From a virus, in the IMG/VR virus record IMGVR_UViG_3300048930_000661, positions 1-49,315 of that record: DNA of 49,315 nt, one strand, 5' to 3'. How positions within the stretch are numbered: position 1 is the stretch's first letter; each line of letters opens with the position of its first letter. Both the position numbers and the translations under genes were made by a program. The notes under the pieces are model-generated. The model ran no database searches. It had not been told where the DNA came from and was given only the letters and a program-made list of their open reading frames with translations. This document shows positions 3,297-30,991 of this stretch, piece by piece.

Positions 3297-3338
3297 GTGG
3301 CGGGCTTCCTTGCTCGGTGTGGTAATAGGTCACCCCAA

Positions 3339-3370
3339 CCGCCGCGCCCTGACGAGGCGCAACGCGGCGG
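3339..3370 (-). terminator. GC-rich hairpin after the major capsid gene
   Basis: Arms 3339-3346 and 3363-3370 (ccgccgcg / cgcggcgg) form a perfect 8-base-pair stem around a 16-base insert. It lies in the 93-base gap between capsid and lysis genes and has no U-tract. It could be a weak terminator or an mRNA 3' stabiliser that raises capsid message over lysis message. Confidence 0.35.
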
Positions 3371-3389
3371 CGGGATGGGTACAGATGGA

Positions 3390-4424
3390 TCAGGTGCGCT
3401 TGCCCTTCATCAGCACCTTCGGCCGGGTGCAGTAGTTCAGCGCGTTCATCTGCACTTCCAGGTGGCGGCCCTTGCCGTTCTGGGAGGCGTACTGCTTCGC
3501 GTAGCGCGGCAGGCCATTGGTGTTGACGGTCTCTTCGTAGTCCGCCGGCGCGTAGATCGTGCGGTACAGGCCCGGGACGCCCACCGGGAACAGGTGGCAG
3601 GCATTGGTGCCAACGAAATCGACCGCGCCCACCTTGCCGCGGTAGTTCTCCCAGACGATGCCGCCGAACTCGAACACGCCGTACACGGTGCCGTTGGGGA
3701 GCACGTAGCCGTCGCGCAGCACGGAGGCCATCGGCGTGCCCTTGTAGGACTCCACCACTTCCGGATGCGCCAGCAGATCGTCGAAGAACGCATCGCCGCA
3801 CAGCGCGAACACGGTGCCCATCTGCACGCCGCCCAGATTGCCGGCCACCTTGCGCACGACACCCGCGCACGCCTTGCGCAGCGCGCCACTGGCCGGGCTG
3901 GCGTTGTCCAGGTCGAAATCGACCTCGGATTCCTGCGTCACGCCGAACTCGGAGAACAGGTCGTAGAGCGTGCTGCCGTCGCCATTGAGGATCACGCCCT
4001 TCAGCGCGCCGATGCGCTGATACTCCAGGGTCGGGTCAAGCTTCCAGCTCACGTGCTGCTGCAGGCGGCTGTTGACGCGGTCCTGCAGGGCTTCCAGCTG
4101 GTTCGCCTGGCCGAACGCGCGCACGTTCTGCACGCTGTCCGCCGGAATGAAGTCGTCGAACTGGTAATGCGGCACGACCAGGCTGCGCGCATTGCGGCCG
4201 GATTCGCTGCCGGTGCTGCCAGGGCCGCCGCGGGGGGATGGGTTGATCAGCTTCAGTTCGCCATCCTGCTGTTCCAGCATGATGGTGGTGGTCGGCACGC
4301 CCTCTTCCTGCCAGCCCGCGATGGTGCCGGCACGGCCGGGCACGAACGGGATCTTGTTGATGGCGTCGGTCAGCGCGACAACGCCGAAGGCGTCGCCATT
4401 GAACACATCGGATGCGAGTTGCAT
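3390..4424 (-). CDS. Major capsid protein, lambda gpE family
   Basis: This 344-residue protein matches lambda gpE-type capsid proteins in length and text, including the N-terminal VALTDAINKIPFVPGR segment, TTTIMLEQQDGELKLI, and the C-terminal GNLGGVQMGTVFALCGD and related regions. It forms the icosahedral shell. AAGGAG lies just upstream of the ATG, and the decoration-protein gene precedes it by 15 bases, as in lambda's D-E order. Confidence 0.93.
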   Translation of the reverse strand: MQLASDVFNGDAFGVVALTDAINKIPFVPGRAGTIAGWQEEGVPTTTIMLEQQDGELKLINPSPRGGPGSTGSESGRNARSLVVPHYQFDDFIPADSVQNVRAFGQANQLEALQDRVNSRLQQHVSWKLDPTLEYQRIGALKGVILNGDGSTLYDLFSEFGVTQESEVDFDLDNASPASGALRKACAGVVRKVAGNLGGVQMGTVFALCGDAFFDDLLAHPEVVESYKGTPMASVLRDGYVLPNGTVYGVFEFGGIVWENYRGKVGAVDFVGTNACHLFPVGVPGLYRTIYAPADYEETVNTNGLPRYAKQYASQNGKGRHLEVQMNALNYCTRPKVLMKGKRT

Positions 4425-4439
4425 GGGGTTCTCCTTCGA

Positions 4440-4799
4440 TCAGCGCAGGACGATGTCCAGCTGGTTAAGCTGGCCGATCGCGGTGGTTTTCTGGGGGCTG
4501 GTGATGCCGACGGGCCACACCAGGGCGTCGGCCTTGACCTCAGCAGTGCGGGCGATCACGACGATGGCGGCATCGGCGGCGGTGGCATCCGCGCCATCCC
4601 ACAGGATGGCGGCGGCATTCTGGGAGCCATCCGATGCGCCGGGCGCGAGAATGACGTACTTGCCGCTGGCCGTGATCTTGCCAAGCACTTGACCTGCGAC
4701 CAGCGCCCCGGTGTCGAGGATGGCGTTTTCGCGGCTCAGGGTGCCGTTGGCTTCCGACAGCAGGAAGTCGCCGGTGCGGGGGTTCTCGTTGAGTTCCAT
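4440..4799 (-). CDS. Head decoration protein, lambda gpD family
   Basis: This 119-residue protein is typical in size and composition for lambda gpD, a trimeric protein that caps three-fold sites of the expanded capsid. It has an N-terminal arm (MELNENPRTGDFLLSEANG) and a beta-rich core ending QLNQLDIVLR. It lies between the protease/scaffold gene and the capsid gene, the lambda order. Confidence 0.9.
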   Translation of the reverse strand: MELNENPRTGDFLLSEANGTLSRENAILDTGALVAGQVLGKITASGKYVILAPGASDGSQNAAAILWDGADATAADAAIVVIARTAEVKADALVWPVGITSPQKTTAIGQLNQLDIVLR

Positions 4800-4811
4800 G
4801 GTGGCGTCTCC

Positions 4812-5282
4812 TTACTTCGCGGACTGGCCGGCCATCGCCGCCTGGCGATTGCCGAAAATGGATTTGGAATCGATGCGCGGCTCGCTCTTGCCGTCGTTGT
4901 CGGCGGGTTTGCCACCGTGCGCGGCCTTCGCCGGCGCGTCCTTGCGGATGGCATCGAGGGTGATGCCGCGCTCGTTCGCCGCCTTCATCAGGCTCAGCGC
5001 GAACGCTTCCGGCGACTGGCCGTCGTCGATGGCCGCCTTCAGTTCGTCATCGAAGCCGGCGCGCGCCAGCGCCTGCACCTCGGCGATGCGCTGGCGTTCC
5101 GCCTTCACGGCACCCTCCGTGGCGGTCTTCTTGCCTTCCTCGACGCCTTCGCTACGCGCCTTGGCAATGGCGGCATCGCTGGACGCGATCACGATCTGCT
5201 CGCTGGCGTCGTAGCCGGCGGCGACCGCTTGTCGCAGGTCTTCGGTGGTCGAAACCGTGACCTGCCCGGACTTGCTGGACAT
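4812..5282 (-). CDS. Nested scaffold protein (Nu3-like, internal start within the protease gene)
   Basis: An internal ATG at 5282 begins MSSKSGQVTVSTTEDL and has an AAGAGGAA ribosome binding site about eight bases upstream. It would give a 156-residue, charged, helical protein identical to the protease C terminus. This reproduces lambda's C/Nu3 arrangement, in which the scaffold is made from an in-frame internal start at higher level than the protease. The start is seen directly; use of it is inferred. Confidence 0.7.
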   Translation of the reverse strand: MSSKSGQVTVSTTEDLRQAVAAGYDASEQIVIASSDAAIAKARSEGVEEGKKTATEGAVKAERQRIAEVQALARAGFDDELKAAIDDGQSPEAFALSLMKAANERGITLDAIRKDAPAKAAHGGKPADNDGKSEPRIDSKSIFGNRQAAMAGQSAK

Positions 5283-6119
5283 GGTGGTATTCCTCTTGGT
5301 TGTGCTTGCGGAACCGGCAAGCTCGGCGATCACGGTTTCAAGTGATCCGATGCGGTCGGCCATGCGCGCCTTGACGGCGTCCTTGCCCACCAGCACGCCG
5401 CCCTGCCCGAAGTCGGACAGCACGGTGGCGGTGGTGACCTTGCGATTGCGGGCGACGGCGGCGACGAACACGTCAGCCAGCGCGTCCACGATGGTCTGCA
5501 CCTTGGCGCGGCCATCGTCGCCATTGATATCCAGTCGCTTGTCCGGCGATTGGCTCGACACGATCTGCACCGTGCGCACGCCGCTCTTGGCGTCGCGCTC
5601 GGTGGTGTCCTGTTGCGACATGACCACGCCGATGGAGCCCACCAAGCCGGTGGAACTCATCACGATTTCGTCGCAGGCGCTGGCCAGCCAGTAACCGGCG
5701 GACGCCGCCAGCCCGTCCACGTAGGCCTTGATCGGCTTCTTCGCGCGGCCGGCATGGATGGCGTCCGCCAGCTCGTTGATTGCGGTCGCTTCGCCGCCCG
5801 GCGTGTTGAATTCCAGCACAATCGCGCGCACGTACGGGTTGTCGATCGCGGCTTGCACGTCGGTGGCCAGGTCCTGCGTGGACGTGGCGCCGGAAATGCG
5901 GGTGAACAGGTTCGCGTAGCGGAACACCGGGCCGGTGACCGGGATGATCGCCACGCCATCGCGCATACGCACGTTGCGCGCGTTTTGCAGCGGCTGGCCG
6001 AGGCGGGTTTCCAGTGCCTCCGGATCGCCCTGCCGCTGGGCGATGCTCAGGATGTTTTCCAGCGCGTCCGCCTGGATCAGCCAGGGGCGCGAGGACGCGA
6101 TGGTGAAGGCGTCGATCAC
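4812..6119 (-). CDS. Capsid maturation protease, S49/ClpP-like (lambda gpC type)
   Basis: A 435-residue protein has an S49 peptidase domain at residues about 50-270. Visible motifs are the oxyanion-region text EFNTPGGEA, the nucleophile region ASAGYWLAS and GSIGVVMSQQD. The last 155 residues are hydrophilic and helical and contain the scaffold. In lambda, gpC and the scaffold Nu3 share a C terminus in the same way. It degrades the scaffold and processes portal or capsid during prohead maturation. ATG 6119 overlaps the portal stop as ATGA. Confidence 0.9.
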   Translation of the reverse strand: MIDAFTIASSRPWLIQADALENILSIAQRQGDPEALETRLGQPLQNARNVRMRDGVAIIPVTGPVFRYANLFTRISGATSTQDLATDVQAAIDNPYVRAIVLEFNTPGGEATAINELADAIHAGRAKKPIKAYVDGLAASAGYWLASACDEIVMSSTGLVGSIGVVMSQQDTTERDAKSGVRTVQIVSSQSPDKRLDINGDDGRAKVQTIVDALADVFVAAVARNRKVTTATVLSDFGQGGVLVGKDAVKARMADRIGSLETVIAELAGSASTTKRNTTMSSKSGQVTVSTTEDLRQAVAAGYDASEQIVIASSDAAIAKARSEGVEEGKKTATEGAVKAERQRIAEVQALARAGFDDELKAAIDDGQSPEAFALSLMKAANERGITLDAIRKDAPAKAAHGGKPADNDGKSEPRIDSKSIFGNRQAAMAGQSAK

Positions 6120-8585: not shown

Positions 8586-9998
8586 TCAGGCGGCCAGCGG
8601 CCGCCCGAGGATGGCGCGCGGGCCGCGACCCAACAAGCGGGACAGCTTCAGTTCGATCAGGTCCAGCCCTTCATCGCGGGACCAGCGTCCGATGACGTTG
8701 TAGTCCCCGCGGTGTTCGGTGAGCCGATCATACGTGGCCTGCGCGTCTGCGCAGGCGGCCGGCCAACCGTGGATGGCCCCTGCCGCCGGTGCGGCCAGCG
8801 CCACGCGCAAGGCCTGCGGCGCGAGAATCCGGCTTTCAAAGCCCTCGTACAGGCCGAGCAATTCGATGTCCTCGTCGAACACCGCCAGCACCAGGCGGCC
8901 ATCCGTGGTCTCGATCGCTTCCACGTGTTCCACGGCATCCGCGCGCAGGGCCGGCACGGGTGAAGGCGGCACCGCGCGCAACGGCCGCGCAGGTACTGGC
9001 GTGGGCGCGGGCGCGGGTGCCGCCGTAGGTTCCAGCCGGCTTAGCCGCTTGCCGTTGCCGCCCAATGCCACGCAGATAGCCCGCCAGTGCGCGCAGTGCC
9101 GGAAGCCGTGCCCCGACGCATCCGCCACAAGGTGCGCCACCTCGTGCGGGATCGTGCTACGCAATACGTGCTCCGGATGCGATGCGAGAAACGCCAGATT
9201 GAACCGCAGCGAGTAGGCCTTGCCCTTTCGCACGGCCTGCGCCAGGCATCGCTGGCCGCGCACGTCGAAGCGGACGGCAGGCATCAGCCGCCCGACCTTC
9301 GGGTAACGCTGCGCCGCATCATCTAGGCAGGCATTCAGCGCGGCCAGGATGGCGGTTTCCGCCGCGTCACGTGCGGACACGGACGTGGGCGCGGGTGCCC
9401 GCGTGGCCTCTTCGCACTCCGGTACATCCTCCCGCACTGGTTCCGCGTTGACCTTGTCGTGGTCGGTCGCGTCGAGCAGGCCACGGCGGACCATTTCCCG
9501 CTGCACGCCTTCAATATCCCGCGCCAGGCTCAGGCGCGTGGCCGGACCGCAATCCTCACCGTCCCAGCGCTGCCGCATGATCTTCAGCGCGTAGGCTTTG
9601 CGTTCCACGCACAAAACGGCAAGCGCCTCGTCTGAGTAGGTGCCGAACCGGTGGGCATCCCGCGCCGTGGCAGCCTGGAATGCCGGCCACGCTTCGCGGT
9701 CGCGCGCAGGGCCGTGCGGCTTGCCGGGCCGGTAGCCGCCGCAGCGCTGCACGTCGCGCGCAAAGCGCTCCAGGCGCGTGCGCGCATTGATCACGCGGGC
9801 GTGCCCGAACACCGTGCGGAAGGTCGCGAAGCCGCAGCGCTTCGCGTACGCCTCCCAGCGCTGCCCGAACGCCGCTTCACCTTCGGTACGCTGGCGCACC
9901 GGCGCGGCTTCCGTGCTGGCGTTGTGCATGACCACGGACACCGCGGATAGCAGGTCAAGCTCTGCCGTGCGGTGCGCGGCGGCATCCCAGCGGGTCAT
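8586..9998 (-). CDS. SprT-like zinc metallopeptidase domain protein
   Basis: This 470-residue protein carries a SprT-like core near residue 275-310 with the zinc-binding HExxH in STIPHEVAHLVADASGHG and further histidines (GHGFRHCAHW). A helical N-terminal half, an Ala/Pro-rich linker (PAPAPTPVPARP) and a C-terminal domain of unknown type surround it. SprT/Spartan domains cleave proteins crosslinked to DNA or act on DNA-bound proteins. ATG 9998 overlaps the upstream stop as ATGA; the frame is open to 10055, but that start would sit inside the neighbour. The phage role is unknown; DNA-protein handling is inference. Confidence 0.75.
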   Translation of the reverse strand: MTRWDAAAHRTAELDLLSAVSVVMHNASTEAAPVRQRTEGEAAFGQRWEAYAKRCGFATFRTVFGHARVINARTRLERFARDVQRCGGYRPGKPHGPARDREAWPAFQAATARDAHRFGTYSDEALAVLCVERKAYALKIMRQRWDGEDCGPATRLSLARDIEGVQREMVRRGLLDATDHDKVNAEPVREDVPECEEATRAPAPTSVSARDAAETAILAALNACLDDAAQRYPKVGRLMPAVRFDVRGQRCLAQAVRKGKAYSLRFNLAFLASHPEHVLRSTIPHEVAHLVADASGHGFRHCAHWRAICVALGGNGKRLSRLEPTAAPAPAPTPVPARPLRAVPPSPVPALRADAVEHVEAIETTDGRLVLAVFDEDIELLGLYEGFESRILAPQALRVALAAPAAGAIHGWPAACADAQATYDRLTEHRGDYNVIGRWSRDEGLDLIELKLSRLLGRGPRAILGRPLAA

Positions 9999-10201
9999 TG
10001 GCCACCGCCGTACACGCGAGCGAGGGCGGCGCTCAATTTGTCGCGCTGTGGGCACGGTGGAAGGGTGTCACGCGCGAGCATGGCCGCGCGCGTCAACCCT
10101 TCAAAAGCATAGAGAATTTCGATCACGTCCTTTGGTAGCACCGGCGTTCCATTCCCTTCCGGGCAGCTGGCGATCACGCGCAGCAATTCCAGGGCGTTCA
10201 T
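9995..10201 (-). CDS. Hypothetical small protein
   Basis: A 68-residue, largely helical protein ([16 protein letters not shown]...) in an ATGA-overlap chain between two other genes. No family is recognised. The overlaps on both sides are the main evidence that it is real. Confidence 0.6.
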   Translation of the reverse strand: MNALELLRVIASCPEGNGTPVLPKDVIEILYAFEGLTRAAMLARDTLPPCPQRDKLSAALARVYGGGQ

Positions 10202-10458
10202 CGCGCACCCCCGCCTGCGGCGGCGATTGCTTTTTGCAAGCGCTCAGCAAGTTTCACCGCGTCCCGGGATGGTGCGATGCCCTTCCGCGCGGCGCGATGC
10301 AGCGCACCAGCTGCCGAAGACGCCGCCTCGATCAACTCCGCAAACACCGCTTTGGCCTCGATGGCGCGCGCGTTGAATTCTTCGTGAGAGGCTCCAAGGC
10401 TGCTTTTGAAAATTGCGTCATCGAGCACCAAACCCACACTTACGGCGCGGGGCTTCAT
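10198..10458 (-). CDS. Hypothetical small helical protein
   Basis: An 86-residue, Ala-rich, helical protein ([17 protein letters not shown]...). It overlaps the RadC-like gene upstream and the 68-residue gene downstream by four bases each. No family is recognised. Confidence 0.6.
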
Positions 10459-10952
10459 ACCAGCCCCCGGGCGGCCATGGACAAGGCCGGCCCATCGCCG
10501 ACGATGAAATGATCAAGCACGCGCACGTCCAACAGCGCCAGCGCTTGCTTCAGGCGCATCGTCACGGCGCGATCAGCGGCCGATGGGTCCGGATTGCCGC
10601 TTGGGTGGTTGTGCCCGAGGATCACCGCACTGGCGTTGACCGCAAGCGCGCGGCGCGCAACCTCACGCGGGTGGACTTCGCAGCCGTCGGTGCTGCCAGC
10701 AAACAGGTCTTCGCACGCGATCAGCCGATGGCGGCTGTCCAGGAACATGACCGCGAAGACTTCGCGCGTGAGTCCGCGCAGCCGCGCGCTCATGTACAGG
10801 CCGGCGCGGGCCGGGTCCGCATAGGCGTCCCCGCGCTGCATTTCCGCGTGCAGCAATTCCGCGGCCCGGGCAATGATGTCCGCATCGCTGGCGGACTGCC
10901 GGGTGTGCGCCCCCCGCGCGCAATCTTCGATGCGCTGGGCGGCGCGGTTCAT
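10455..10952 (-). CDS. RadC-like JAB-domain protein
   Basis: A 165-residue protein with a JAB/RadC domain: the zinc-binding [14 protein letters not shown] motif at residues about 113-126 and the preceding VILG strand are clear. Full-length chromosomal RadC also has N-terminal helix-hairpin-helix repeats, which are absent here, so this is the short form found on phages, plasmids and islands. The biochemical role is not settled; it often travels with antirestriction and accessory genes. It overlaps both neighbours. Confidence 0.85.
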
Positions 10953-11374
10953 GCGGCCACCTGCAGCGGCTGCGCGGCGCAGGTGAACGGCTTGTCCCAG
11001 CGGCCGATGTTGACCTCAACGTACCAGCCTACGTCGAAGTAGTCGGTCATCGTGTCGCTGCGGTCGTGATTGCCGCGATTCAGCGCCTCGAAAATGGGCG
11101 CGAACACGTCAATGTCCAGCCCGCTTTCGCGAAAGTAGTAGGGATTCAGGCGGGCATGACTGGCGTGCGCCAGGTAGTCTTCGCGCTGGCCGTGGGCGGC
11201 GCGCTGCGCGCTGACGGCCTTCAGCTGCCCCAGCAGGTCAACCGGTGCTGAGGTGATGTTCAGCACGATGGTGCTGCGATGCTGGACGGCTAGGCTGTAT
11301 TTCCAGCCGCGCGGGATGACGCGTTTCAATTCAGCAGCGATGCCGGCTTTACGCGCTTGACTCATGAAGGCCAT
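10949..11374 (-). CDS. Hypothetical protein, possibly related to LPD29-type mobile-element domains
   Basis: A 141-residue protein with AGGAG eight bases before ATG 11374. The N-terminal text [20 protein letters not shown] followed by TIVLNI resembles a domain often found beside RadC and antirestriction genes on mobile elements. The middle has many aromatic residues ([19 protein letters not shown]). The family assignment is weak. It is the first gene after the candidate promoter at 11.47 kb. Confidence 0.6.
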
Positions 11375-11466
11375 TGCTTGATCTCCTGCGCCATCCGGGC
11401 AAGCCCGCCGGCGTATTGGATGCCGGTTGCCCCGGCTGGCTGGCCGCTCGCTGCGGCTTAGGTAAT

Positions 11467-11495
11467 ACCTTATCGCACCTTATCCTACCATGCAA
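11467..11495 (-). promoter_or_regulatory. Candidate promoter with paired 8-base direct repeats
   Basis: On the minus strand TTGCAT (11495-11490) is separated by exactly 17 bases from TAAGGT (11472-11467). The octamer GATAAGGT occurs twice, ten bases apart (11484-11477 and 11474-11467), one helical turn, overlapping the promoter. This is the most AT-rich piece of an otherwise very GC-rich late region. It lies between the antiterminator-like gene and the RadC/head operon, so it could start that operon. Activity is inferred. Confidence 0.5.
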
Positions 11496-11517
11496 GCGAT
11501 TCGCTTATGAATTTACG

Positions 11518-11886
11518 TTATATGCCGGCCGGCAGGCGGTGCAATGCGACCTCCAGGCAAGCGTGCGCCGCGTCCAGGTAGACGTAATAGGCCGTCCGGC
11601 TCACCGGCAGGCCCAGCCGCTGCAGCCGGTGCAGGCGCAGCGCTTCTGTGGCGTCCGGCATGGCGTACTCGACCAGCAATACACGGGCCTCTTTCCAGCG
11701 GCCGGCGGCCAGCATTCGGGTCACCACCGAATCGATGTCGGCGTCTGCGCGGGTGTCGCCATCGTTTGCCGCCGGCTGCGCCACCGCGCGCAGGATGTCC
11801 AGCGACAACCGGCCGTGCGCGGCGCAGTGGCGTTCCGCCCAGCGGCACAGGCGTTCGGCCAGCTCGGGCGTGGTGCCTCGGCTCAA
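11518..11886 (-). CDS. Helix-turn-helix protein, candidate late antiterminator/activator
   Basis: From a TTG at 11886, which overlaps the large-terminase stop as TTGA, this is a 122-residue protein. The frame is open further upstream inside the terminase. The C terminus has LGLPVSRTAYYVYLDAAHACLEVAL, split here as LGLPVSRTAYYVY and LDAAHACLEVAL, which looks like the sigma-region-4-type helix-turn-helix of phage Q/DUF1133-like regulators. It sits just before a promoter and the head operon, the expected place for a late regulator. Similarity is judged by eye only. Confidence 0.5.
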   Translation of the reverse strand: MSRGTTPELAERLCRWAERHCAAHGRLSLDILRAVAQPAANDGDTRADADIDSVVTRMLAAGRWKEARVLLVEYAMPDATEALRLHRLQRLGLPVSRTAYYVYLDAAHACLEVALHRLPAGI

Positions 11887-14135
11887 TGCACGCCCCGACT
11901 GCGCACGCTTCGCCCTGCCCGCTTGCGCGGCCCACCATGCGCCACCGGCAGGCCGGCCAGATAGCGGCGGCACTTGTCCAGCACATCGGCGGGCAGCGCG
12001 GACGGCACGCCATGCGCGGGTCCCAGGGCGCCCATCAGCTCCGCGTGCAGGGCGCGCTCATCAGGATGCGCGGCCTGCGCGGCCTGCCACGCCTGCAAGG
12101 CATCCGCCGTGGCCACGGCCTGCGGCGCCCGCTCGGCCATGCCGACCACCGCGAACACCACGCTGCGCACGCCCATTGCCGGCGGCGGCGGGGCCATGGA
12201 TTCCCGTGAAACATCCGCAGCGGCCTCCGCCGACGGCGCGTGCGGTGCGCCGGTGGCGTGCTGCGATGTTTCACGGGAATCCATTGCAGTGGCGCCCAGC
12301 GCCTTGGCGCTGTCCAACAGGCGCTTTTCGCGCGCGTCCCAGTCGGCGGCGGTGAGCCGGTGAAGGCGCAGTTCGTGGTGGTGGCCGGCGGCGGTGGCGT
12401 ACTTCCACGTATCCAGCGGTTCGTTGCGCGGCGAGCCGCGGCGCTTCTCGTATCGGCCCTTGCGCGGGTTCCAGATTTCGGAGACCAGGCCGCCCAGGAA
12501 GGCGTCGTCCAACTCCTCGCTGAAGTGGATGCGACGGTCGGCGGGCTCTTTCTCGGTATCCGCGCCGAGCACGGCGTACAGGTCGTGAGTGATGCCGATG
12601 CCGCCGACCTGGTAGGTCTGCACGCCCTTCTTGTCGGTCTTACCGTTGCGGGTCACGTCCTGCCACACCGGCCGCCCCAGCGCCGGCGCATTGGCGTTGC
12701 GGGACCCGAAGATCGCCATCGGTCGGCGCACGCGGGACTGGCGTGCGAAGTGCTTCACATCTTCGGTGCGGTGGCCGCCCGCATCGATCGCCACCGCCTC
12801 GACCCGCATCATCGCCCCGCAGGCGTGCTGCAGCGGGCGGTTCAACAGCTCGGTGAGCGCGTTCCAAACGTCGTCCTCGGCCGGATCGCCCTGCAGTTCG
12901 ATGTAGTCCAGGACCCAACGGCTCTTGCCACGTCCCCAGCCAATCAGCTGGACGGCCAGGCGATCATCCTGCGTGTCCACACCCGCAGTGACCGCCAGCA
13001 CGCCATGCGGCGCGGTGCGCAGCTTGTAGGGCTCCGTGCGGTCGCGCAGTTCGGCTTCCTTGGGCGTGGACTTCGATTTCCACGCTTCGGCCAGGCGGTC
13101 GTTGACGAAGGTTTTCAGCGCGGCCGGATCATTCAGCGCGGCCAGGAATTCGCGCACCATGCCCAGCCAGGTCAGGCCCAGCCCCGCCGGGTAGTACAGG
13201 CCATTGGCGCGATAAGCGCGCGCCTTGCGGTTCGGATGCGCCGGCACCCAGCCGATGCCGGGCTCGCCGGCGCGGTTGCGACGGAACGCGTCCGCGATCA
13301 GCGCGGTCTTCTGGTGCTCGCGGATGACGGCGGCACAGTGGCGGCAGCAGTACCAGCAATCGCTGGCGTCCGGCGTCCACTGCAGGCCAGACCATTCCAG
13401 CGGCTGCTTGTGCTTGCACTCTGGGCACTCGACGTGGAACAGGCGCTGGTCGGACTTGTCCCAGGCCTCGGTGAGCCGGCAGTTGCCTTCGGTTTCCGGC
13501 GTGCCGACCTTGAACCGCTTGGCGCGCCAGAACGCCGTGGTGCGGCCGTCCAGCAGGGCCACCGGATCGTCGCCGGTCTTCAGTTCGTTGGCGAAGCTGG
13601 AGAACTCGTCCCCCAGCACCATGCCGGCCGAGGTGGACTTCAGGCGCTTGGCATCGCCGGCATGCTCGAAGTAGAGCTGGCCGCCTTCGAAGTCCTTGAA
13701 GGTCCGCCGGTTGGAGGTTTCGCGGCTGTTGAGGCTGACCAGCACGGCCTGGATGGCGGGCGTCTCGTCGATCAGCGGATTCAGCTTCTGGTCGATGAAC
13801 TTGTTCATCGACACTTCGCCCGGCAGCGCCACGATGATGGGCATCGGGTTTTCGCACATCGTGTAACCGAGGATGTTGGCCTCGATTTCCGACTTGCCGA
13901 ACTGGATGGGCAGGATCGCCGCCATGTCGGTGACGCTGCTGCTGGCGCTGCCGCAGTCCATGATTTCGACCTGCAGCGGGTTGCGCATGTTGTTCCAGGG
14001 GAATGGCTCCGCGCTGCCCTTTGCCGACAGCACGCGGTTCGCCGTGGCCCATTCGGACACCAGCGTTTTCTTGCGCGGCGCAACGGCGCGCGCGAACGCG
14101 GACAGCATCAGGTCGTGGGCGGAGGCAAGGGCCAT
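11883..14135 (-). CDS. Terminase large subunit, lambda gpA family
   Basis: A 750-residue packaging ATPase/nuclease. Visible features are the Walker-A-like region ILPIQFGKSE, the Walker B GMVLGDEF, a zinc-binding set (CPECKHKQP then CWYCCRHC), and the nuclease start AVTAGVDTQDDRLAVQ. gpA-type terminases make cohesive (cos) ends. The conserved part ends around residue 610 (DTWKYATAAGHHHEL). The last about 130 residues are an Ala/Pro-rich extension of unknown role that contains a 20-base inverted repeat. It overlaps the next gene at its stop. Confidence 0.92.
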   Translation of the reverse strand: MALASAHDLMLSAFARAVAPRKKTLVSEWATANRVLSAKGSAEPFPWNNMRNPLQVEIMDCGSASSSVTDMAAILPIQFGKSEIEANILGYTMCENPMPIIVALPGEVSMNKFIDQKLNPLIDETPAIQAVLVSLNSRETSNRRTFKDFEGGQLYFEHAGDAKRLKSTSAGMVLGDEFSSFANELKTGDDPVALLDGRTTAFWRAKRFKVGTPETEGNCRLTEAWDKSDQRLFHVECPECKHKQPLEWSGLQWTPDASDCWYCCRHCAAVIREHQKTALIADAFRRNRAGEPGIGWVPAHPNRKARAYRANGLYYPAGLGLTWLGMVREFLAALNDPAALKTFVNDRLAEAWKSKSTPKEAELRDRTEPYKLRTAPHGVLAVTAGVDTQDDRLAVQLIGWGRGKSRWVLDYIELQGDPAEDDVWNALTELLNRPLQHACGAMMRVEAVAIDAGGHRTEDVKHFARQSRVRRPMAIFGSRNANAPALGRPVWQDVTRNGKTDKKGVQTYQVGGIGITHDLYAVLGADTEKEPADRRIHFSEELDDAFLGGLVSEIWNPRKGRYEKRRGSPRNEPLDTWKYATAAGHHHELRLHRLTAADWDAREKRLLDSAKALGATAMDSRETSQHATGAPHAPSAEAAADVSRESMAPPPPAMGVRSVVFAVVGMAERAPQAVATADALQAWQAAQAAHPDERALHAELMGALGPAHGVPSALPADVLDKCRRYLAGLPVAHGGPRKRAGRSVRSRGVH
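12196..12284. repeat. Perfect 20-base inverted repeat inside the terminase C-terminal extension
   Basis: Arms 12196-12215 (atggattcccgtgaaacatc) and 12265-12284 are exact reverse complements separated by 49 bases. Each arm carries CGTGAAACA, the same as one half of the usual bacterial parS site. In the coding strand the arms encode MDSRETS and DVSRESM. Confidence 0.8.
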
Positions 14136-14316: not shown

Positions 14317-15561
14317 TCATGTCTCCTTAATTGCGGTGGGGCCCTGCTCTTCCAGTAGCCCGAGTTCGGCTGCGCACGCATCGATGTCGAAGCGTCCGCT
14401 TTCGTCGTCGGGGTAGCCCGGGGCGTAGACCAGGACAAAGCGCCCCTGGGAATCGGTTGCGATGTTGCCGTCCTGCGTGCCGATGTAGATGTCGTCGTGG
14501 CGCAGGCGCGTGGGGAACTCATGCAAGCGCCATAGGAATTCGTGGGCCTCGCGCAGGGTGTTGCAGCGCTGATCCGCATCCACGTTGCGCAGGCTGCGGC
14601 CGATGCCGGCGTTGTATTCCTTCCACGCCGACGACTGGAAGCCGGCCGTGCGGTCCGCCCAGGCCTGGAACGCTTCGAAGGTGAACGCCACGGACTGCCC
14701 GAGTGTGCGCAGGTGATCGAACCAGGCTTCCAACGTGGGCCACTGCGGATAGCCGAGCGCAAAGTACGAATCCCAGAAATGTCCGTTCGCGCTGGTGGTA
14801 CCGGTGAACGTGTTGATGCCGACCTGGTCGCACAACTCACGCAGGTGCGGCCAGGCCGGCGGGCGCAGGGTGTGGCCGGCCTTGAAGTAGGTGATTTCCC
14901 CGGCGAAACGCGCGCGCACCTTGTTCGTCATGGCGCGTTCCTGCATGTAGTTCAGGTGCGGCTCGCCGATCCATGCATGGCGGATGTCGTGCGCGGCCAG
15001 CCAATCGAGGAAGCCTTCGATGTCGTCCCACCATGGCGGGAAAAACGGATTGATGCCGGCCACCACGTGATGGCCCGCCGCTTTCGCCGCCAGCGCCAGT
15101 TCCTTGCGCGCGGCGAACGATGGCGCGCCGGGCTCTGCCTGCTTGCGCGTGGACTCCTGGTCGGTGGTGAAGCTGATGTAGATCATGGTCGGCGGGTGCC
15201 GCTCCATCATCGCGATGGCGCCGTCGCCGCCGCGCGTCTGGAAGCTGAAGCGCAAACCCAGGTCCATCATCGCGTCGATCAGGGCGATGTTCTGCTCGCC
15301 GTTGGACTTCGCGAACGGATCGCTGTCATTGCTGGCCAGGATGGTGTGGCCGCCCAGCGCCAGCATGGTGGCGATGTCTTTGCCCGCCTGCTTGCGCTGC
15401 ACCTTGCCGAGGAATTGCTGGATGCCGGGGTAGTCCGCGCGACGGCCGGGCCGGTTGAGGTTGGCGAAGCAGTAGAAGCAGCCGTGCGTACACCAGTTCA
15501 GACCCATGTGCAGGGCAACGGGCGACACGAGGTATTCGCCGGTGTAGGGGCGGATGCTCAT
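14317..15561 (-). CDS. Radical SAM enzyme of unknown substrate
   Basis: A 414-residue protein with the iron-sulfur cluster motif CxxxCxxC in NWCTHGCFYCFANLN (cysteines near residues 24-31). Later barrel text (TILASNDSDPF, RFSFQTRGGDG, MIYISFTTD) is typical of the SPL-like radical SAM group. The reaction is unknown. It overlaps the ParB-domain gene (ATGA) and precedes the terminase, so a role in modifying DNA or in packaging is possible but unproven. Confidence 0.85.
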   Translation of the reverse strand: MSIRPYTGEYLVSPVALHMGLNWCTHGCFYCFANLNRPGRRADYPGIQQFLGKVQRKQAGKDIATMLALGGHTILASNDSDPFAKSNGEQNIALIDAMMDLGLRFSFQTRGGDGAIAMMERHPPTMIYISFTTDQESTRKQAEPGAPSFAARKELALAAKAAGHHVVAGINPFFPPWWDDIEGFLDWLAAHDIRHAWIGEPHLNYMQERAMTNKVRARFAGEITYFKAGHTLRPPAWPHLRELCDQVGINTFTGTTSANGHFWDSYFALGYPQWPTLEAWFDHLRTLGQSVAFTFEAFQAWADRTAGFQSSAWKEYNAGIGRSLRNVDADQRCNTLREAHEFLWRLHEFPTRLRHDDIYIGTQDGNIATDSQGRFVLVYAPGYPDDESGRFDIDACAAELGLLEEQGPTAIKET

Positions 15562-16274
15562 TGCGCGCTCTCCGCGCCCGCGTCCTGCGCCGCTGCATCG
15601 CGCTGCGCAAGCAGTTCGGCGATGGCCTCGCTGTCGCTGCGCTGGCCCTTGAACTTGCGCCACTGCTGCAGCGTGGGCTTGTTGAGCTGCAGGATCAGCG
15701 GGTACTGAATGCCCTTGCCTTCGTTCGCGGTGGTCGCGCCCTGGCCGATGTCGGCGTAGTCGTCGGCGGTGGGCGTGCGGTCGTCGTCGCCATCGGTGGC
15801 GGCGGCCGGCTTCGGGGGCTTTGCCTTGCGCGCCGGCGTGGGATCGAGGTCCGGTAGGTGCGCGGCCAGCCCGGCGAAGGCGTCGTCATCGAAGCCGATG
15901 TCGGACAGCTCGATGCCGAGGTCGCCATCCATCAGCAGCTCTTCCACCTCGCTGGCCAGCGTGGACATGTCCCAGCCGGACAGTTCGCCCAGGCGGTTGT
16001 CGGCGATGACGTAGGCGCGGCGCTCGTCGTCGCTGAGGTGCGCCAGGCGGATGCAGGGCACGGTGTCCAGCCCGGCCAGCGCGGCGGCCAGTACACGGCC
16101 GTGGCCGGCAACGATGGTGCCGTCGGCATCGATCAGCACCGGGTTGTTGAACCCGAACCGGCGGATGGAGTTGGCCAGCGCCTGCACCTGCTCCGGCGAA
16201 TGCGTGCGGCTGTTGCGCGCGTACGGCGAAAGCTGCGCGAGCGGGAGGTACTCGATGGCGAGGGTGGTGGTCAT
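15558..16274 (-). CDS. ParB/sulfiredoxin-fold domain protein
   Basis: A 238-residue protein whose N-terminal 100 residues are a ParB-type nuclease/CTPase-fold domain: YLPLAQLSPYARNSRTHS, then FGFNNPVLIDADGTIVAGHG and the DERRAYVIADNRLGELSGWD segment. This exact form usually sits in front of a DNA methyltransferase in phages and islands, but no methyltransferase domain is fused here. The C terminus is acidic and Pro/Lys-rich. ATG 16274 overlaps the small-terminase stop. It may assist DNA recognition at packaging; this is inference. Confidence 0.82.
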   Translation of the reverse strand: MTTTLAIEYLPLAQLSPYARNSRTHSPEQVQALANSIRRFGFNNPVLIDADGTIVAGHGRVLAAALAGLDTVPCIRLAHLSDDERRAYVIADNRLGELSGWDMSTLASEVEELLMDGDLGIELSDIGFDDDAFAGLAAHLPDLDPTPARKAKPPKPAAATDGDDDRTPTADDYADIGQGATTANEGKGIQYPLILQLNKPTLQQWRKFKGQRSDSEAIAELLAQRDAAAQDAGAESAQ

Positions 16275-26319: not shown

Positions 26320-26528
26320 TGCCGCGCTGGTACGCCCTCTGCCGCGGCAATGATCTGCCGGCTTGCGCCATCTGCCGCCGCCACGTGGACCACAACGGCA
26401 GCGCCCAGCACGAAGCCAGGCAGGGTTTCACCGGGCCGGACCTGGTAGGCACGCACTGCAACCGCTTCATCGAACTTCCGCCGGTGCTGGGCGTGGCCGG
26501 TGCCGTCACCCCAACCGATTCGCGCTAA
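26319..26528 (+). CDS. Hypothetical small Cys-rich protein
   Basis: A 69-residue protein with several Cys and His residues (LPACAICRRHVDHN, GTHCNRF) that may bind zinc. It is the last of the overlapping small-gene chain before the DGR. No family is recognised. Confidence 0.5.
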   Translation: MPRWYALCRGNDLPACAICRRHVDHNGSAQHEARQGFTGPDLVGTHCNRFIELPPVLGVAGAVTPTDSR

Positions 26529-26547
26529 GCGCACACAAGAGGCCACC

Positions 26548-27012
26548 ATGAACCAGTTCAATGTCCGCGTCACCCACCGCACAGAGCTTGGCGACCGCGC
26601 GATCGAGCACACCATCGAAATCGACACCGGGAAGGCTGAGAGCCCTGCACTCCCTCAGGCCAGCGTCACGGCGGTGAACAGCACCCTGGAGTGGAGTGCC
26701 ACGCTCTGCGACGGCGAGCGCGCGACCTACAAGAAGGCCGAGGCCGCATGCGCCGCACTTGGCGAAGGCTGGCGCCTGCCCACGCGTATGGAGCTGGAGT
26801 CGATTCTCGACCTCTCGCGTCACGGCCCCGCCGTCGACCCCGCCCGGTTCCCTGACACGCAGTCCAGCTGGTACTGGAGCAGCACGCCGTGCGCGTGGTC
26901 TTCCGATCACGCGTGGGTCGTCAGCTTCGTCAACGGCTACGCCAGTTACGACCACCGCGTCAACTACAGCGCCTTCGTGCGCGCGGTGCGTGCGTCGCCT
27001 TCCGGCCAGTAA
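26548..27012 (+). CDS. DGR target protein 1 (DUF1566/C-type-lectin-like fold)
   Basis: A 154-residue protein starting at ATG 26548 with AAGAGG upstream. The N-terminal 45 residues are unlike the second target. From LEWSATLCDGERATYKKAEA on it follows DUF1566 proteins (EGWRLPTRMELESI...SWYWSST...FVRAVR), the lectin-like fold used by many DGR targets. The last 38 residues are VR1. It differs from the template at ten bases, all template adenines, changing nine residues. Unlike in phage BPP-1, the target is not fused to a fibre and has no signal peptide, so its ligand and location are unknown. Confidence 0.88.
   Translation: MNQFNVRVTHRTELGDRAIEHTIEIDTGKAESPALPQASVTAVNSTLEWSATLCDGERATYKKAEAACAALGEGWRLPTRMELESILDLSRHGPAVDPARFPDTQSSWYWSSTPCAWSSDHAWVVSFVNGYASYDHRVNYSAFVRAVRASPSGQ
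26893..27006 (+). repeat. DGR variable region 1 (VR1)
   Basis: A 114-base match to the TR at 27991-28104. All ten differences sit where the TR has A (five A to G, five A to T). The last 36 bases contain no variation and end in GGC followed by CAG, whereas the TR has GAG there, as expected for an IMH versus IMH* distinction. Confidence 0.93.
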
Positions 27013-27046
27013 CTCGGCCTTTCTGATCTAGCCCAAGGAGTCAGCC

Positions 27047-27475
27047 ATGAACGCCACCGCAGCCGCGGTTTCCACCCCCGCCTCTCCGCGCTTCGTCGAC
27101 AACGCCGACGGCACCGTTACCGACAACACCACGGGCCTCATGTGGTCGAAGGCGACGCTCAGCGCGGAGAATGTTACCCACCGCCAAGCCGAGAACATCT
27201 GTACTGACCTCGACCTCGCCGGCCACAAGGACTGGCGCTTGCCGACCGTGGGGGAATTGTTCGCGCTGGCGGACCACTCGCGGTATTCGCCGGCGATCGA
27301 CACTGAGGCATTCCCGGGCACGCACTCCGATTGGTACTGGAGCAGCACCATCACGGCGTGGTCTTCCGATCTCGCGTGGGTCGTCTGCTTCAGCTACGGC
27401 AACGCCGTTAGCAGCCGCCGCGACTACTACAACGCCTTCGTGCGCGCGGTGCGTGCGTCGCCTTCCGGCCAGTGA
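27047..27475 (+). CDS. DGR target protein 2 (DUF1566/C-type-lectin-like fold)
   Basis: A 142-residue protein with AAGGAG before the ATG. It opens with a short Ala/Pro stretch, then the full DUF1566 signature: NADGTVTDNTTGLMWSKA, a Cys at ENICTDLDLAG, DWRLPTVGELFALAD, and WYWSST before the variable end. VR2 forms its last 38 residues and differs from the template at 12 adenines. It follows target 1 by 34 bases, so one template serves two targets. The domain is cleaner DUF1566 than target 1, which suggests duplication or capture followed by divergence. Confidence 0.9.
   Translation: MNATAAAVSTPASPRFVDNADGTVTDNTTGLMWSKATLSAENVTHRQAENICTDLDLAGHKDWRLPTVGELFALADHSRYSPAIDTEAFPGTHSDWYWSSTITAWSSDLAWVVCFSYGNAVSSRRDYYNAFVRAVRASPSGQ
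27356..27469 (+). repeat. DGR variable region 2 (VR2)
   Basis: A 114-base match to the TR. All 12 differences are at TR adenines (A to G or A to T), including the CAC to CTC and AGC to TGC sites that VR1 leaves unchanged. The other 90 TR positions, which are not A, are identical. Confidence 0.93.
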
Positions 27476-27496
27476 CTTTGCCTCTCTGAGCTGATC

Positions 27497-27937
27497 ATGG
27501 CCTACGAATTGCCACCTATCGCCAAAGCGTCTCGCACCATGCTGGTCATGGTGGAGCAGGCCGCCACGACGTTCCCGCGCCGGCACCGCTATGGCCTGGG
27601 CGAAGAGCTGCGGGCCAACGCCCGCGAGGTGGCGCGGCTCTGCAACCGCGCGTGGCGTGATCGCGCACGGCAGCTCTACTGGACGGAGCAACTGCGGTGG
27701 GCAGTCGATGAAATCAAGACCACCCTGCAGCTTGGCCAGGAACTGAAGGCGTTCCGCAGCTTCAAAGAGTTCGATGCCCTGATCCGCAAAGCGGAAGACC
27801 TGGGTAGGCAAGCCGGTGCATGGCACCGGCACCAGCAGCACCCCAACGGCCAGAATGCAGCGCCCCACAAGGCACCGCAGCGCGCCGAGACACTGGGCAC
27901 GCGCCCCGCCTCCGCTAATGCAGGGGCCAACCAATGA
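27497..27937 (+). CDS. avd: Accessory variability determinant (Avd)
   Basis: A 146-residue protein whose first 115 residues are the helical bundle typical of DGR Avd proteins, rich in Arg/Lys (RRHRYGLGEELRANAREVAR, YWTEQLRWAVDEIKTTLQLG, FKEFDALIRKAEDLGRQAG). Avd forms a pentamer that binds the RT and TR RNA and is required for mutagenic cDNA synthesis. The C-terminal 30 residues are low-complexity. Its stop overlaps the RT-frame ATG as ATGA. It appears intact. Confidence 0.88.
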   Translation: MAYELPPIAKASRTMLVMVEQAATTFPRRHRYGLGEELRANAREVARLCNRAWRDRARQLYWTEQLRWAVDEIKTTLQLGQELKAFRSFKEFDALIRKAEDLGRQAGAWHRHQQHPNGQNAAPHKAPQRAETLGTRPASANAGANQ

Positions 27938-29076
27938 CAACGCCGTCCTACCCGTTTGGCTGGCCGGCGAAGTTGCAAGTGGGCGCGGAGGCGTGGTCTT
28001 CCGATCACGCGTGGATCGTCAGCTTCAACAACGGCAACGCCAATAACAACCACCGCGACAACAACAACGCCTTCGTGCGCGCGGTGCGTGCGTCGCCTTC
28101 CGGCGAGTGTCAGGGTGCAGGTGCGCAGGGCATTCCCTTGCGCGCCCTTTACAACGCCTGGCGCGCTGCGCGCCGAGGCAAGAAGCCCAGCCGCAACCAG
28201 CTGGCCTTCGACATGCAATGGGCGGATCGCCTGCTGCAGCTACAGCGCGAGGTCAACGCCGGCCGGTGGCAACCGCGTCCCAGCACCTGCTTCATTGCCA
28301 CCCGCCCGAAGGCGCGCGAGATCCACGCGCCCGACTTCGGCGACCGCGTGGTGCACCACTGGCTGGTCCCGCAGCTGGAAGCGGTCTACGAGCCGCGCTT
28401 CATCTTCGACAGCTACGCCAATCGCCGTGGCAAAGGTAGCCATGCCGCCGTGCGGCGACTGCAGTGCTTCGTTCGGCAGGTGGCCAGCGGGCAAGGCGGC
28501 GGGTACTACCTCCAGCTCGACATCCACAACTACTTCAATTCGATCCATCGCGCCACACTGTGGCGGCTGCTGAAGCCGGTACTGATGCGTGCCGGCGTAT
28601 CACACCAGGCGCTGCAGGCCACCCATGCGCTACTCCGCCGCGATCGCAAACAGTTGGTCGCCTGGCAACGCCAGATTGAGCAATTTCTCGCGCAACGCCT
28701 GCGGCTCTCCCTCAAGGCCGACGTGAAGCTGCGCCCGCTGGGCGACGGCATCGACTTCCTTGGCTACGTGATCCGCCCCACGCACACGCTGGCACGCCGC
28801 CGCGTGGTCGCCCATGCCTGCGAGGCCTTCGCTGCATGGGAAGCGCGCCATGTGCACAACGGCCATATCTGCGCCACCCCAAGCGCGCTTCGCGCCCTGC
28901 AGGCAACCGCCGCCAGCTATGCCGGCCACCTGAAACACGCCAGCTGCCACCGTCTGCAGAACGCATTGCATCGCCGGTTCGCTTGGCTTGCCATCGCGGC
29001 AACACCGCGCCGCTTCCCTGCCCGGCAAGAGGGCCGGGCAGTCACGCTCCGCTTCAAGGAAGTCGATCATGACTGA
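27934..29076 (+). CDS. DGR reverse transcriptase, lacking catalytic motifs through an in-frame deletion
   Basis: A 380-codon frame. Residues 20-57 are the translated TR. The RT proper starts near residue 65 (GIPLRALYNAWRAARRGKKP); a TTG there could be the native start. Motifs seen are KAREIHAPDFGDRVVHHW, FDSYANRRGKGSHAA, motif A YYLQLDIHNYFNSI with D196, and the thumb region GIDFLGYVIRPTH. Normally some 65-75 residues holding G(I/L)PIGxLTSQ and the YxDD box stand between the helix after motif A and the helix DR-QL-W. Here HALLRRD (231-237) runs straight into RKQLVAWQRQIEQFL. The frame stays open, so the product would fold without an active site. It looks like a recent deletion in a once active enzyme. 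Confidence 0.9.
   Translation: MTTPSYPFGWPAKLQVGAEAWSSDHAWIVSFNNGNANNNHRDNNNAFVRAVRASPSGECQGAGAQGIPLRALYNAWRAARRGKKPSRNQLAFDMQWADRLLQLQREVNAGRWQPRPSTCFIATRPKAREIHAPDFGDRVVHHWLVPQLEAVYEPRFIFDSYANRRGKGSHAAVRRLQCFVRQVASGQGGGYYLQLDIHNYFNSIHRATLWRLLKPVLMRAGVSHQALQATHALLRRDRKQLVAWQRQIEQFLAQRLRLSLKADVKLRPLGDGIDFLGYVIRPTHTLARRRVVAHACEAFAAWEARHVHNGHICATPSALRALQATAASYAGHLKHASCHRLQNALHRRFAWLAIAATPRRFPARQEGRAVTLRFKEVDHD
27991..28104 (+). repeat. DGR template repeat (TR), in frame with the RT
   Basis: The 114-base TR holds 24 adenines, concentrated in nine AAY codons between 28024 and 28068. It is transcribed to RNA and copied with errors at A before replacing VR. Both VRs differ from it only at these adenines. 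No stop codon separates it from the RT, so it is translated as residues 20-57 if the ATG at 27934 is used. Confidence 0.94.
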
Positions 29077-29523: not shown

Positions 29524-29583
29524 GCTTAACACCGAGTTAAGCCGCACCGCGTAGCGGTGTCGGCCTTGAACGCCTTGTTAGAT
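29524..29583 (+). repeat. attC site 1
   Basis: This 60-base site begins with R'' GCTTAAC (consensus RYYYAAC) and ends with R' GTTAGAT (consensus GTTRRRY). The arms between them (GTTAAGCCGCACCGC and GCGGTGTCGGCCTTGAAC) are imperfectly complementary around a short GTA loop, the layout of an integron attC. Cutting would be after G29577. Confidence 0.85.
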
Positions 29584-29601
29584 CCCACTCTTGGAGCCCC
29601 A

Positions 29602-29844
29602 ATGCAGCAATCACGACTTGAATCAATGGCCGAAACCGCGATCAACACAGCGATCGGCTACGTGATTGCGCTGGGGTCGCAGTTGGTGATCTTCCCGGCG
29701 TTTGGAATTGCGGTTTCTCTTTCCACGAACCTTTGGATAGGCGCGTGGTTCACGGCAATCAGCCTGGTGCGCGGGTACGCGATCCGCCGCTGGTTCAACG
29801 GACGGATTAAGCGGGCAGCCGCGAGGATGGCAGCGTGGGACTGA
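29602..29844 (+). CDS. DUF7220-like small membrane protein (cassette 1)
   Basis: An 80-residue protein with TTGGAG before ATG 29602 and two hydrophobic segments (GYVIALGSQLVIFPAFGI and NLWIGAWFTAISLV) and a basic C terminus. It resembles DUF7220, a family of small phage proteins of unknown function. The next gene overlaps its end by ten bases. Confidence 0.75.
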   Translation: MQQSRLESMAETAINTAIGYVIALGSQLVIFPAFGIAVSLSTNLWIGAWFTAISLVRGYAIRRWFNGRIKRAAARMAAWD

Positions 29845-30323
29845 GCGGACACCAAAGCGCCAGGATGAAGAACGACGAATGGCTGACGCCGCCGGAGATC
29901 GTCTCTGCGCTGGGCGCGTTCGACCTGGACCCGTGCAGCCCGGTCAACAGGCCGTGGGCCACAGCGTCGCAGCACTACACCGTGCAGGACGATGGACTGG
30001 CGCAGCCGTGGCACGGGCGCGTGTGGTGCAACCCGCCGTTTGGCCGCGAGGCGGTGAAGTGGCTGCGGCGGATGCGCGACCACGGCAACGGCGTGGCGCT
30101 GATCCCGGCGCGCACCGAAACCGCAATGTTCTACGAGACGGTGTGGGGACACGCAGCCGGCGTGCTGTTCCTGCGCTCACGACCACATTTCCACTACGTG
30201 GACGGCCGCCGAGCGCCGTTCAACAGCGGTGCGCCGATATGCCTGGTGGCGTATGGCGCGAGGAACCTGGACGCGCTCATGGAGAGCGGGCTGGGTTTCA
30301 CCGTAGTGGGATCTAACAGTTGA
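29835..30323 (+). CDS. Dam-like DNA N6-adenine methyltransferase (cassette 1)
   Basis: From GTG 29835 (AGGA eight bases upstream; ATG 29865 is possible) it encodes 162 residues. EWLTPPEIVSALGAFDLDPC is the opening of phage-type adenine methyltransferases, and WCNPPFG is the catalytic (D/N)PP(Y/F) motif. It may protect phage DNA from restriction. Its stop lies inside attC2's R'' arm, normal for cassette genes. Confidence 0.85.
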   Translation: MGLSGHQSARMKNDEWLTPPEIVSALGAFDLDPCSPVNRPWATASQHYTVQDDGLAQPWHGRVWCNPPFGREAVKWLRRMRDHGNGVALIPARTETAMFYETVWGHAAGVLFLRSRPHFHYVDGRRAPFNSGAPICLVAYGARNLDALMESGLGFTVVGSNS

Positions 30324-30402
30324 GTTAAGCCGGCCCGCTGGCCGGAAGTTTCAATCCGCGCCGAGACCGCGAAGCTGGCTCGGCTTGAACGAATTGTTAG
30401 GC
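30311..30402 (+). repeat. attC site 2
   Basis: A 92-base site with R'' ATCTAAC and R' GTTAGGC, both matching consensus. The inner arms include GAGTTAAGCCG and CGGCTTGAAC. It differs from attC3 at only five of about 78 inner positions. Confidence 0.88.
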
Positions 30403-30730
30403 GGCAACCACACGGAGCGATAAACATGGCGCAGGAAGAACGAATCAGCGGGGAATGCGGGAAGTGCGGCGAGGCGGTGACGCTGGTGCGAAATAGCGTT
30501 GCCAAGACGTGCCGGAGCGACGGCAACCGATATATCTACCCCGACCGCCAGGACATGCAGCACAGCGGCTGGTGCATCTTCCGGTGCCGTGGTTGCCATG
30601 AGGTTATCGACAACAACTGGCGGGCGTTGCAGACCCCGATTGCCGCCTAACGCCTGAGTTAAGCCGGCCCGCTGGCCGGATGCTTCAAACCGCACCGAGA
30701 CCGCGAAGCGGGCTCGGCTTGAACGAATTG
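30397..30730 (+). mobile_element. Integron gene cassette 2 (334 bases)
   Basis: Starts (G)TTAGGCGGCAA and ends at G30730. Its R'' region (TTGCCGCCTAAC, 30640-30651) is the exact 12-base complement of its own start, the hallmark of a genuine cassette. It carries one gene. Confidence 0.85.
30426..30650 (+). CDS. Small zinc-ribbon-like cassette protein (cassette 2)
   Basis: A 74-residue protein with GGAG before ATG 30426. Two Cys pairs (ECGKCGE and FRCRGCHE) plus single Cys residues suggest zinc binding. The function is unknown, as for most cassette proteins. The stop is within attC3's R''. Confidence 0.7.
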   Translation: MAQEERISGECGKCGEAVTLVRNSVAKTCRSDGNRYIYPDRQDMQHSGWCIFRCRGCHEVIDNNWRALQTPIAA

Positions 30731-30736
30731 TTAGAG
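30645..30736 (+). repeat. attC site 3
   Basis: A 92-base site with R'' GCCTAAC and R' GTTAGAG (the last base departs from the Y of GTTRRRY). The inner sequence is nearly identical to attC2. Confidence 0.85.
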
Positions 30737-30745
30737 GGCGGACAC

Positions 30746-30991
30746 ATGCAACAGCAAATCGAAATTGCCGCGAAACTCTACAAGTGCCGTGATAGCGCCA
30801 GATTCCTGCTTGGCGAACGTTACACGGAAAAGATGACTGATTACGGCACCGCCATAAAGCGTGCGGCGATAAAGATGCATTGCAGCCACTTAAAGGCAGC
30901 GATGGCAATGGCCGAGAGAACCGATGACGGCATGTTGCAGATGTTGATCTTTGCAGCTGCCGTAGAACTGGCCGAGCCCTCTAACAAGTGA
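30746..30991 (+). CDS. Hypothetical cassette protein (cassette 3)
   Basis: An 81-residue, mostly helical protein with GAGGGCGG before ATG 30746. It has Cys/His residues (KLYKCRDSARF, KMHCSHLKAAM) but no known motif. Its G+C is visibly lower than the phage backbone, a sign of transfer. No family is recognised. Confidence 0.65.
   Translation: MQQQIEIAAKLYKCRDSARFLLGERYTEKMTDYGTAIKRAAIKMHCSHLKAAMAMAERTDDGMLQMLIFAAAVELAEPSNK
30979..30991 (+). repeat. Truncated attC (R'' only) at the end of cassette 3
   Basis: GCCCTCTAAC (30976-30985) is the exact complement of cassette 3's start (G)TTAGAGGGC, so it is its R'' arm. The hairpin and R' that should follow within 60-100 bases are absent. Confidence 0.65.

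Follow-up and report, generated by a model that had tools for sequence, protein, structure and literature searches.

A cluster of three integron attC sites without an integron integrase (a CALIN) lies in what looks like a complete temperate siphovirus, IMG/VR virus record IMGVR_UViG_3300048930_000661, and was very probably built by the integron integrase (IntI) of a host at a lone GTTRRRY site in the phage DNA. The whole record, 49,315 bases long, was analysed and is called the window here. In the mechanism that we propose, host-supplied integron integrase would have inserted cassettes into the site CACTTG|TTAAGC, by the phage integrase gene, and further cassettes would have been added at attC sites or have arrived with the first. 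The array reads c3, c2, c1 on the minus strand while its genes lie on the plus strand, matching the neighbouring phage genes. Several unrelated phages have attC arrays with cassettes of the same methyltransferase lineage, and the enzyme probably masks phage DNA against host restriction.

A preliminary description of this DNA had named three attC sites, and all three were found exactly where it placed them (Table 1). It had also reported that the R'' arm of each cassette is complementary to that cassette's own first bases; these matches are contiguous, exact and of the lengths it gave, and for the 10-base match of c3 the next best chance candidate was far lower. A covariance model, R1, was trained on 21 attC sites, none from the window, which a pattern search had picked out in bacterial genomes and in a single viral record that bears an integron; because most were picked with a pattern modelled on the window's sites, R1 is independent of them in data, not in type. 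Run over the whole window with filters off, R1 strongly accepted all three sites (E 2e-13 or better) and returned no others, the next match reaching 12.6 bits (E 0.5); rejection of all sites, which the preliminary description had named as counting against it, did not occur. No match was found with Rfam in the window at gathering scores. On the minus strand, each of the three sites forms a stronger fold than shuffled sequence does (z −2.8 to −3.1), and the boxes of attC1 read GCTTAAC ... GTTAGAT on the plus strand. A second model, R2, whose training includes the window's sites, recovers the three published attCs of Tetrasphaera phage TJE1, as well as one of phage H101, which the paper calls PH101.

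A CALIN has at least two attC sites close together and no integron integrase nearby; the window has three within 1.2 kb, and both the integron integrase family TIGR02249 and the tyrosine recombinase family PF00589 are absent from its whole record, in agreement with the preliminary description. Its label of a CALIN-like array in a phage fits. A complete integron has intI and attI, and here intI is absent from the record and a bare G|TT stands at the beginning of the array. The cassettes have the core-site boundaries and mutually complementary ends of mobile cassettes. Across 38 cassettes from the window and eight other viral loci, the own-end run averaged 7.4 bases vs 3.9 for non-own ends (p 4e-10).

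Table 1. Features of the cassette array and the adjoining recombinase gene in the window.
Feature	Coordinates	Strand	Evidence
attC1, canonical 3' end of array	29524..29583	-	R1 54.3 bits, E 2e-13
attC2	30311..30402	-	R1 61.6 bits, E 1.3e-15
attC3	30645..30736	-	R1 67.3 bits, E 2.7e-17
Cassette c1, canonical polarity, 787 bp	29530..30316	-	own-end complementarity 13 bases
DUF7220 / phrog_4276 gene, 80 aa	29602..29844	+	PF23858 E 1.3e-29; PHROG E 5.5e-28
Dam-like N6-adenine DNA methyltransferase, 162 aa	29835..30323	+	PF05869 E 5.7e-11; phrog_111 E 1.5e-43
Cassette c2, canonical polarity, 334 bp	30317..30650	-	own-end complementarity 12 bases
c2 gene, 74-aa cysteine-rich protein	30426..30650	+	phrog_19024 E 4.8e-5
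Cassette c3, canonical polarity, 334 bp, first of array	30651..30984	-	own-end complementarity 10 bases
c3 gene, 81 aa	30746..30991	+	no Pfam or PHROG match
Bare insertion junction, CACTTG/TTAGAG on minus strand	30979..30991	-	sequence; no R1 match here
Large serine recombinase (presumed phage integrase)	31265..32938	+	PF00239 + PF07508; phrog_95 E 2.6e-61

The termini of the record repeat over 131/132 bases, with one mismatch, within collagen-like repeats, and joining the ends gives a single continuous collagen-like tail-fibre ORF, so the window is most likely a complete circle of ~49.18 kb. The repeat and the ORF running across the join also led us to reject the window as a prophage edge. 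Its structural and packaging genes include a terminase, portal, head protease, major head protein and tape measure; a primase, a CI-like repressor and a serine integrase were found as well. The large serine recombinase adjoining the array is presumed to be this phage integrase, not an integron integrase. No close relative of it was found in viral_contigs, and the closest relative of the phage, L278, has a tyrosine integrase at the same position. The isolated phages searched included no near match to the window phage. The preliminary description had held that conservation of the region as ordinary backbone in related phages would count against a cassette array; this was not borne out, as the whole records of relatives G422-G431 are without attC. 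It is very hard to credit a chimeric contig, bacterial integron DNA wrongly taken for viral, or a prophage with host flank. Such a case does occur in the same collection: among 20 viral records tested, only L003 (IMGVR_UViG_2834908352_000001) has IntI above the family cut-off (489 bits), together with a long row of attC sites, and is itself an integron, most likely bacterial DNA. In the window, by contrast, phage genes stand on both sides of the array and the ends close with a continuous ORF, and similar arrays of the same phage were recovered from separate metagenomes (L148/L151 and L142/L143).

Several other features of the window were observed. A diversity-generating retroelement lies directly before the array (26500-29076), so that the two stand side by side in one phage; it comprises two variable genes (VR 26891-27002 and 27354-27465), bAvd (27497-27937), a template repeat near 27989-28100 and a reverse transcriptase to 29076, with 24/25 TR/VR mismatches at template adenines. 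Within the packaging gene cluster lies a minus-strand gene (14317-15663) whose protein matches DNA repair photolyase weakly in PHROG; this protein is kept at ~75–82% in relative L120 and appears radical-SAM-like by eye. An ARAGORN tRNA-Ser call (anticodon act; 5633-5726, minus strand) inside the head protease gene is probably a false positive.

Cassette c1 carries the DUF7220 and Dam-like methyltransferase genes, both antisense to the attC, and the end of the methyltransferase extends a few bases past the cassette boundary. The c2 gene has a GC content of 0.56/0.49/0.80 by codon position, and no minus-strand ORF exceeds 40 aa. On the minus strand the order is phage CACTTG / c3 - attC3 - c2 - attC2 - c1 - attC1 / TTAAGC phage, with predicted recombination points at AA|C of the boxes (29529/30, 30316/17, 30650/51 and 30984/85).

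This direction of reading follows from the polarity of aadA cassettes and chromosomal arrays, set against that of the window genes. In canonical aadA cassettes, the sequence after the pattern sites is the reverse complement of the aadA end, which puts the pattern on the strand opposite the gene. Likewise, when each cassette between attCs at 65 chromosomal loci was represented by its longest ORF, this ORF was on the strand opposite the pattern in 441/508 cassettes, leaving 13% reversed. In the viral arrays it was on the same strand in 35/44 (35:9 vs 67:441, Fisher p 1.8e-20), uncorrected counts from a test that miscalls c1 of the window, whose methyltransferase gene is shorter than a spurious antisense ORF of 164 aa. 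The window genes thus lie on the attC-model strand, reversed relative to canonical cassettes, and the usual, not obligatory, arrangement with the gene's 3' end towards its own attC is found neither in the window nor in most arrays here. Reversed orientation does not exclude cassette membership, given the 13% in the chromosomal set, and an antisense gene is a known exception among bacterial cassettes (PMC12444791).

The array therefore reads from 30985 to 29524 on the minus strand, opposite to the polarity that the preliminary description had assumed. This reading accounts for the lack of an attC beyond the last plus-strand R'' and for the lack of a cassette start ahead of attC1. For the third cassette, the 10-base complement reported earlier stands, but no attC follows its R'' (ending 30985). 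The bare box had been considered first as a truncated attC and then as a trace of recombination at R''; both readings were dropped when comparison with aadA cassettes and the chromosomal arrays showed model and pattern to be the reverse complement of the canonical orientation. The box is thus an ordinary array start. Most viral arrays were found via the methyltransferase, and genes facing the same way within an array are to be expected. Among arrays found otherwise, reversal was seen in L002 (located through its attC pattern), in L123 and L127 (located through DUF7220) and in H101, while TJE1 is canonical, so reversal is not a rule for phages and may be less general than the methyltransferase-based sampling suggests. 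It was also observed that the phage contig L145 has two attC arrays on opposite strands (minus sites 3071-5643, plus sites 9594-13142), and that in both of them most genes lie on the strand of the attC model.

The two ends of the window array differ: its start is a bare G|TT (30984/30985) with no attC beyond, and its far end is a full attC (29524). Rejoining the phage flanks gives CACTTG|TTAAGC, a perfect GTTRRRY, and the array thus looks like an insertion made by an integrase in trans at a lone secondary (attG-like) site. In the window this reading rests on the rejoined site; the comparison of filled and empty sites comes from the Mu-like phage L127. There, a single attC-DUF7220 cassette is flanked by a small ORF that follows the head gene and by gp36, so named from the gene order of Mu-like phages. 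The flanks of L301 and L302, relatives of L127 without the cassette, align with short gaps once the insert is omitted, and the junction agrees with G|TT insertion. The start junctions of nine arrays have G|TT alone in common, with unrelated flanks; because starts were searched for with a plus-strand AAC as a requirement, the G|TT is in part a product of the search, and what counts as evidence is own-end complementarity, which is weaker in two of the nine (L202 and L205). By their sequence, these starts would fit secondary sites of an integron integrase or attG sites. Loot et al. are said, in a paper citing their 2024 work (PMC12444791), to have described attG sites as cassette insertion targets. 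GNT/GTTRRRY secondary sites of integron integrase have also been described (PMC10127599). The insertion proposed for the window resembles these cases in using a lone G|TT that belongs to neither attI nor attC, but they are known from bacterial genomes and plasmids, whereas the target in the window would be phage DNA.

That the array came from a host integron through homologous or illegitimate recombination, or through imprecise prophage excision, appears improbable by comparison. For known phage integrons, Qi et al. 2023 (PMC9892861) describe excision of prophages at attC sites and put forward illegitimate routes, and the array does adjoin the phage serine integrase gene. Such routes sit poorly with array ends falling on G|TT in the window and most arrays examined, with the perfect GTTRRRY restored in the window, and with the clean insertion of L127 relative to L301/L302, which lies in a structural operon far from integrase genes.

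We surveyed 80 viral loci with the methyltransferase, and those closest to the window enzyme tend to end in attC sites; the stems of these sites differ but are compensated, and L' retains its extra base. Close relatives of the enzyme sit in arrays of up to ~ten cassettes. By the models, L145 has 13 sites, L141 and L148/L151 have 8, the L152 contig 6, the L205 contig 6 (one weak) and L146 5, with smaller arrays in L142/L143, L123 and L202. None of these array contigs carries an integron integrase scoring above the cut-off. Among the contigs annotated, the phages are structurally unrelated: terminases are phrog_2/5653 (L148), phrog_38 (L152) and phrog_9 (L205) vs phrog_15 in the window, portals are phrog_156, phrog_1216 and phrog_12 vs phrog_21, and tape measures of various kinds occur in L141, L146 and L205. 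Phage structural genes of differing types were found in the array contigs L141, L146, L148, L152 and L205/L273, and the L152 contig has a 125-bp exact end repeat. L145 has a phage-type single-strand binding protein, and two structural candidates tested there had no named match. On the methyltransferase tree, the attC label changes 5 times vs 10.6 in shuffles (0/500 as low), so the label is clustered, with L202 standing apart. In other phages (L175, L184/185 and L198), DUF7220 and the methyltransferase are neighbours without lying in a cassette, and thus a cassette seems to have captured a pair of phage genes. The L152 phage also encodes a protein of 2,123 aa that gave a DarB-like antirestriction match (L270:11900-18271, on the contig of L152).

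The array might instead be a decayed, immobile remnant, with genes that the phage uses and attC sites that are fossils. The missing integrase in cis is what such a reading expects, and one apparently decaying site was seen: after the closest methyltransferase relative (~90% identity), the attC at L140:10280-10334 has an intact, compensated L stem and an R' box changed to GCTGGCT. We consider this unlikely for the window, where the sites retain the two boxes and the extrahelical base and the own-end complementarity is unbroken, and compensated stem changes are kept in other phages. The cassettes may thus still be mobile, with a host IntI acting in trans.

The attC sites point to a host. In the proposed comparison with chromosomal integrons they were 82–87% identical to chromosomal attCs of Xanthomonadales (attC3 82–86%, attC1 ~85–87%); the sedentary chromosomal integrons of this order, unlike the window, have IntI, many cassettes and mostly canonical genes (441:67), a polarity also stated for most chromosomal cassettes in PMC12444791. 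Cassette ORFs of the window were not found beside those attCs, apart from distant methyltransferases elsewhere in the genomes; more distant homologues of the enzyme occur in 11/398 Xanthomonadales genomes, and a check of the best two showed no attC. Xanthomonadales also hold relatives of the window's tail protein and serine integrase, which together with the attC identity makes a host in this order probable. A compatible IntI is assumed in this host, itself known by inference.

The window is a further member of a reported kind: in the portions of Qi et al. 2023 (PMC9892861) covered, 17 phage CALINs came from 10,705 phage genomes and 5/6 tested phage attC sites recombined with attI1. Those CALINs, such as that of TJE1, are likewise attC clusters without an integrase, with small cassettes that include DNA methyltransferases. 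The TJE1 genes are canonical to attC, whereas the window and methyltransferase arrays are reversed. Those portions report no methyltransferase lineage common to unrelated phages and no empty-site evidence; within the open literature searched, the common lineage, the polarity and the empty-site evidence are new relative to that study. Outside cassettes, Burkholderia phage Bcep176 gp44 belongs to the same family (phrog_111, 73% identical), and, unlike the window gene, neither it nor other phage Dam-like methyltransferases lie in an attC cassette.

Similar arrays around the same methylation gene in unrelated phages suggest that phages join the bacterial cassette trade. More tentatively, and on balance less likely than not, phages may own a cassette pool of reversed polarity and anti-restriction genes, spread via lone G|TT sites by host integrases, with reversal selected to suit phage operons or strand use. 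The reversed polarity and G|TT insertion sites provide testable predictions. Phage-borne cassettes would be a route for integron cargo between bacteria without plasmids, and in the opposite traffic phages may use the integron trade for anti-restriction genes, at a time when it is becoming recognised that integrons of bacteria store anti-phage genes.
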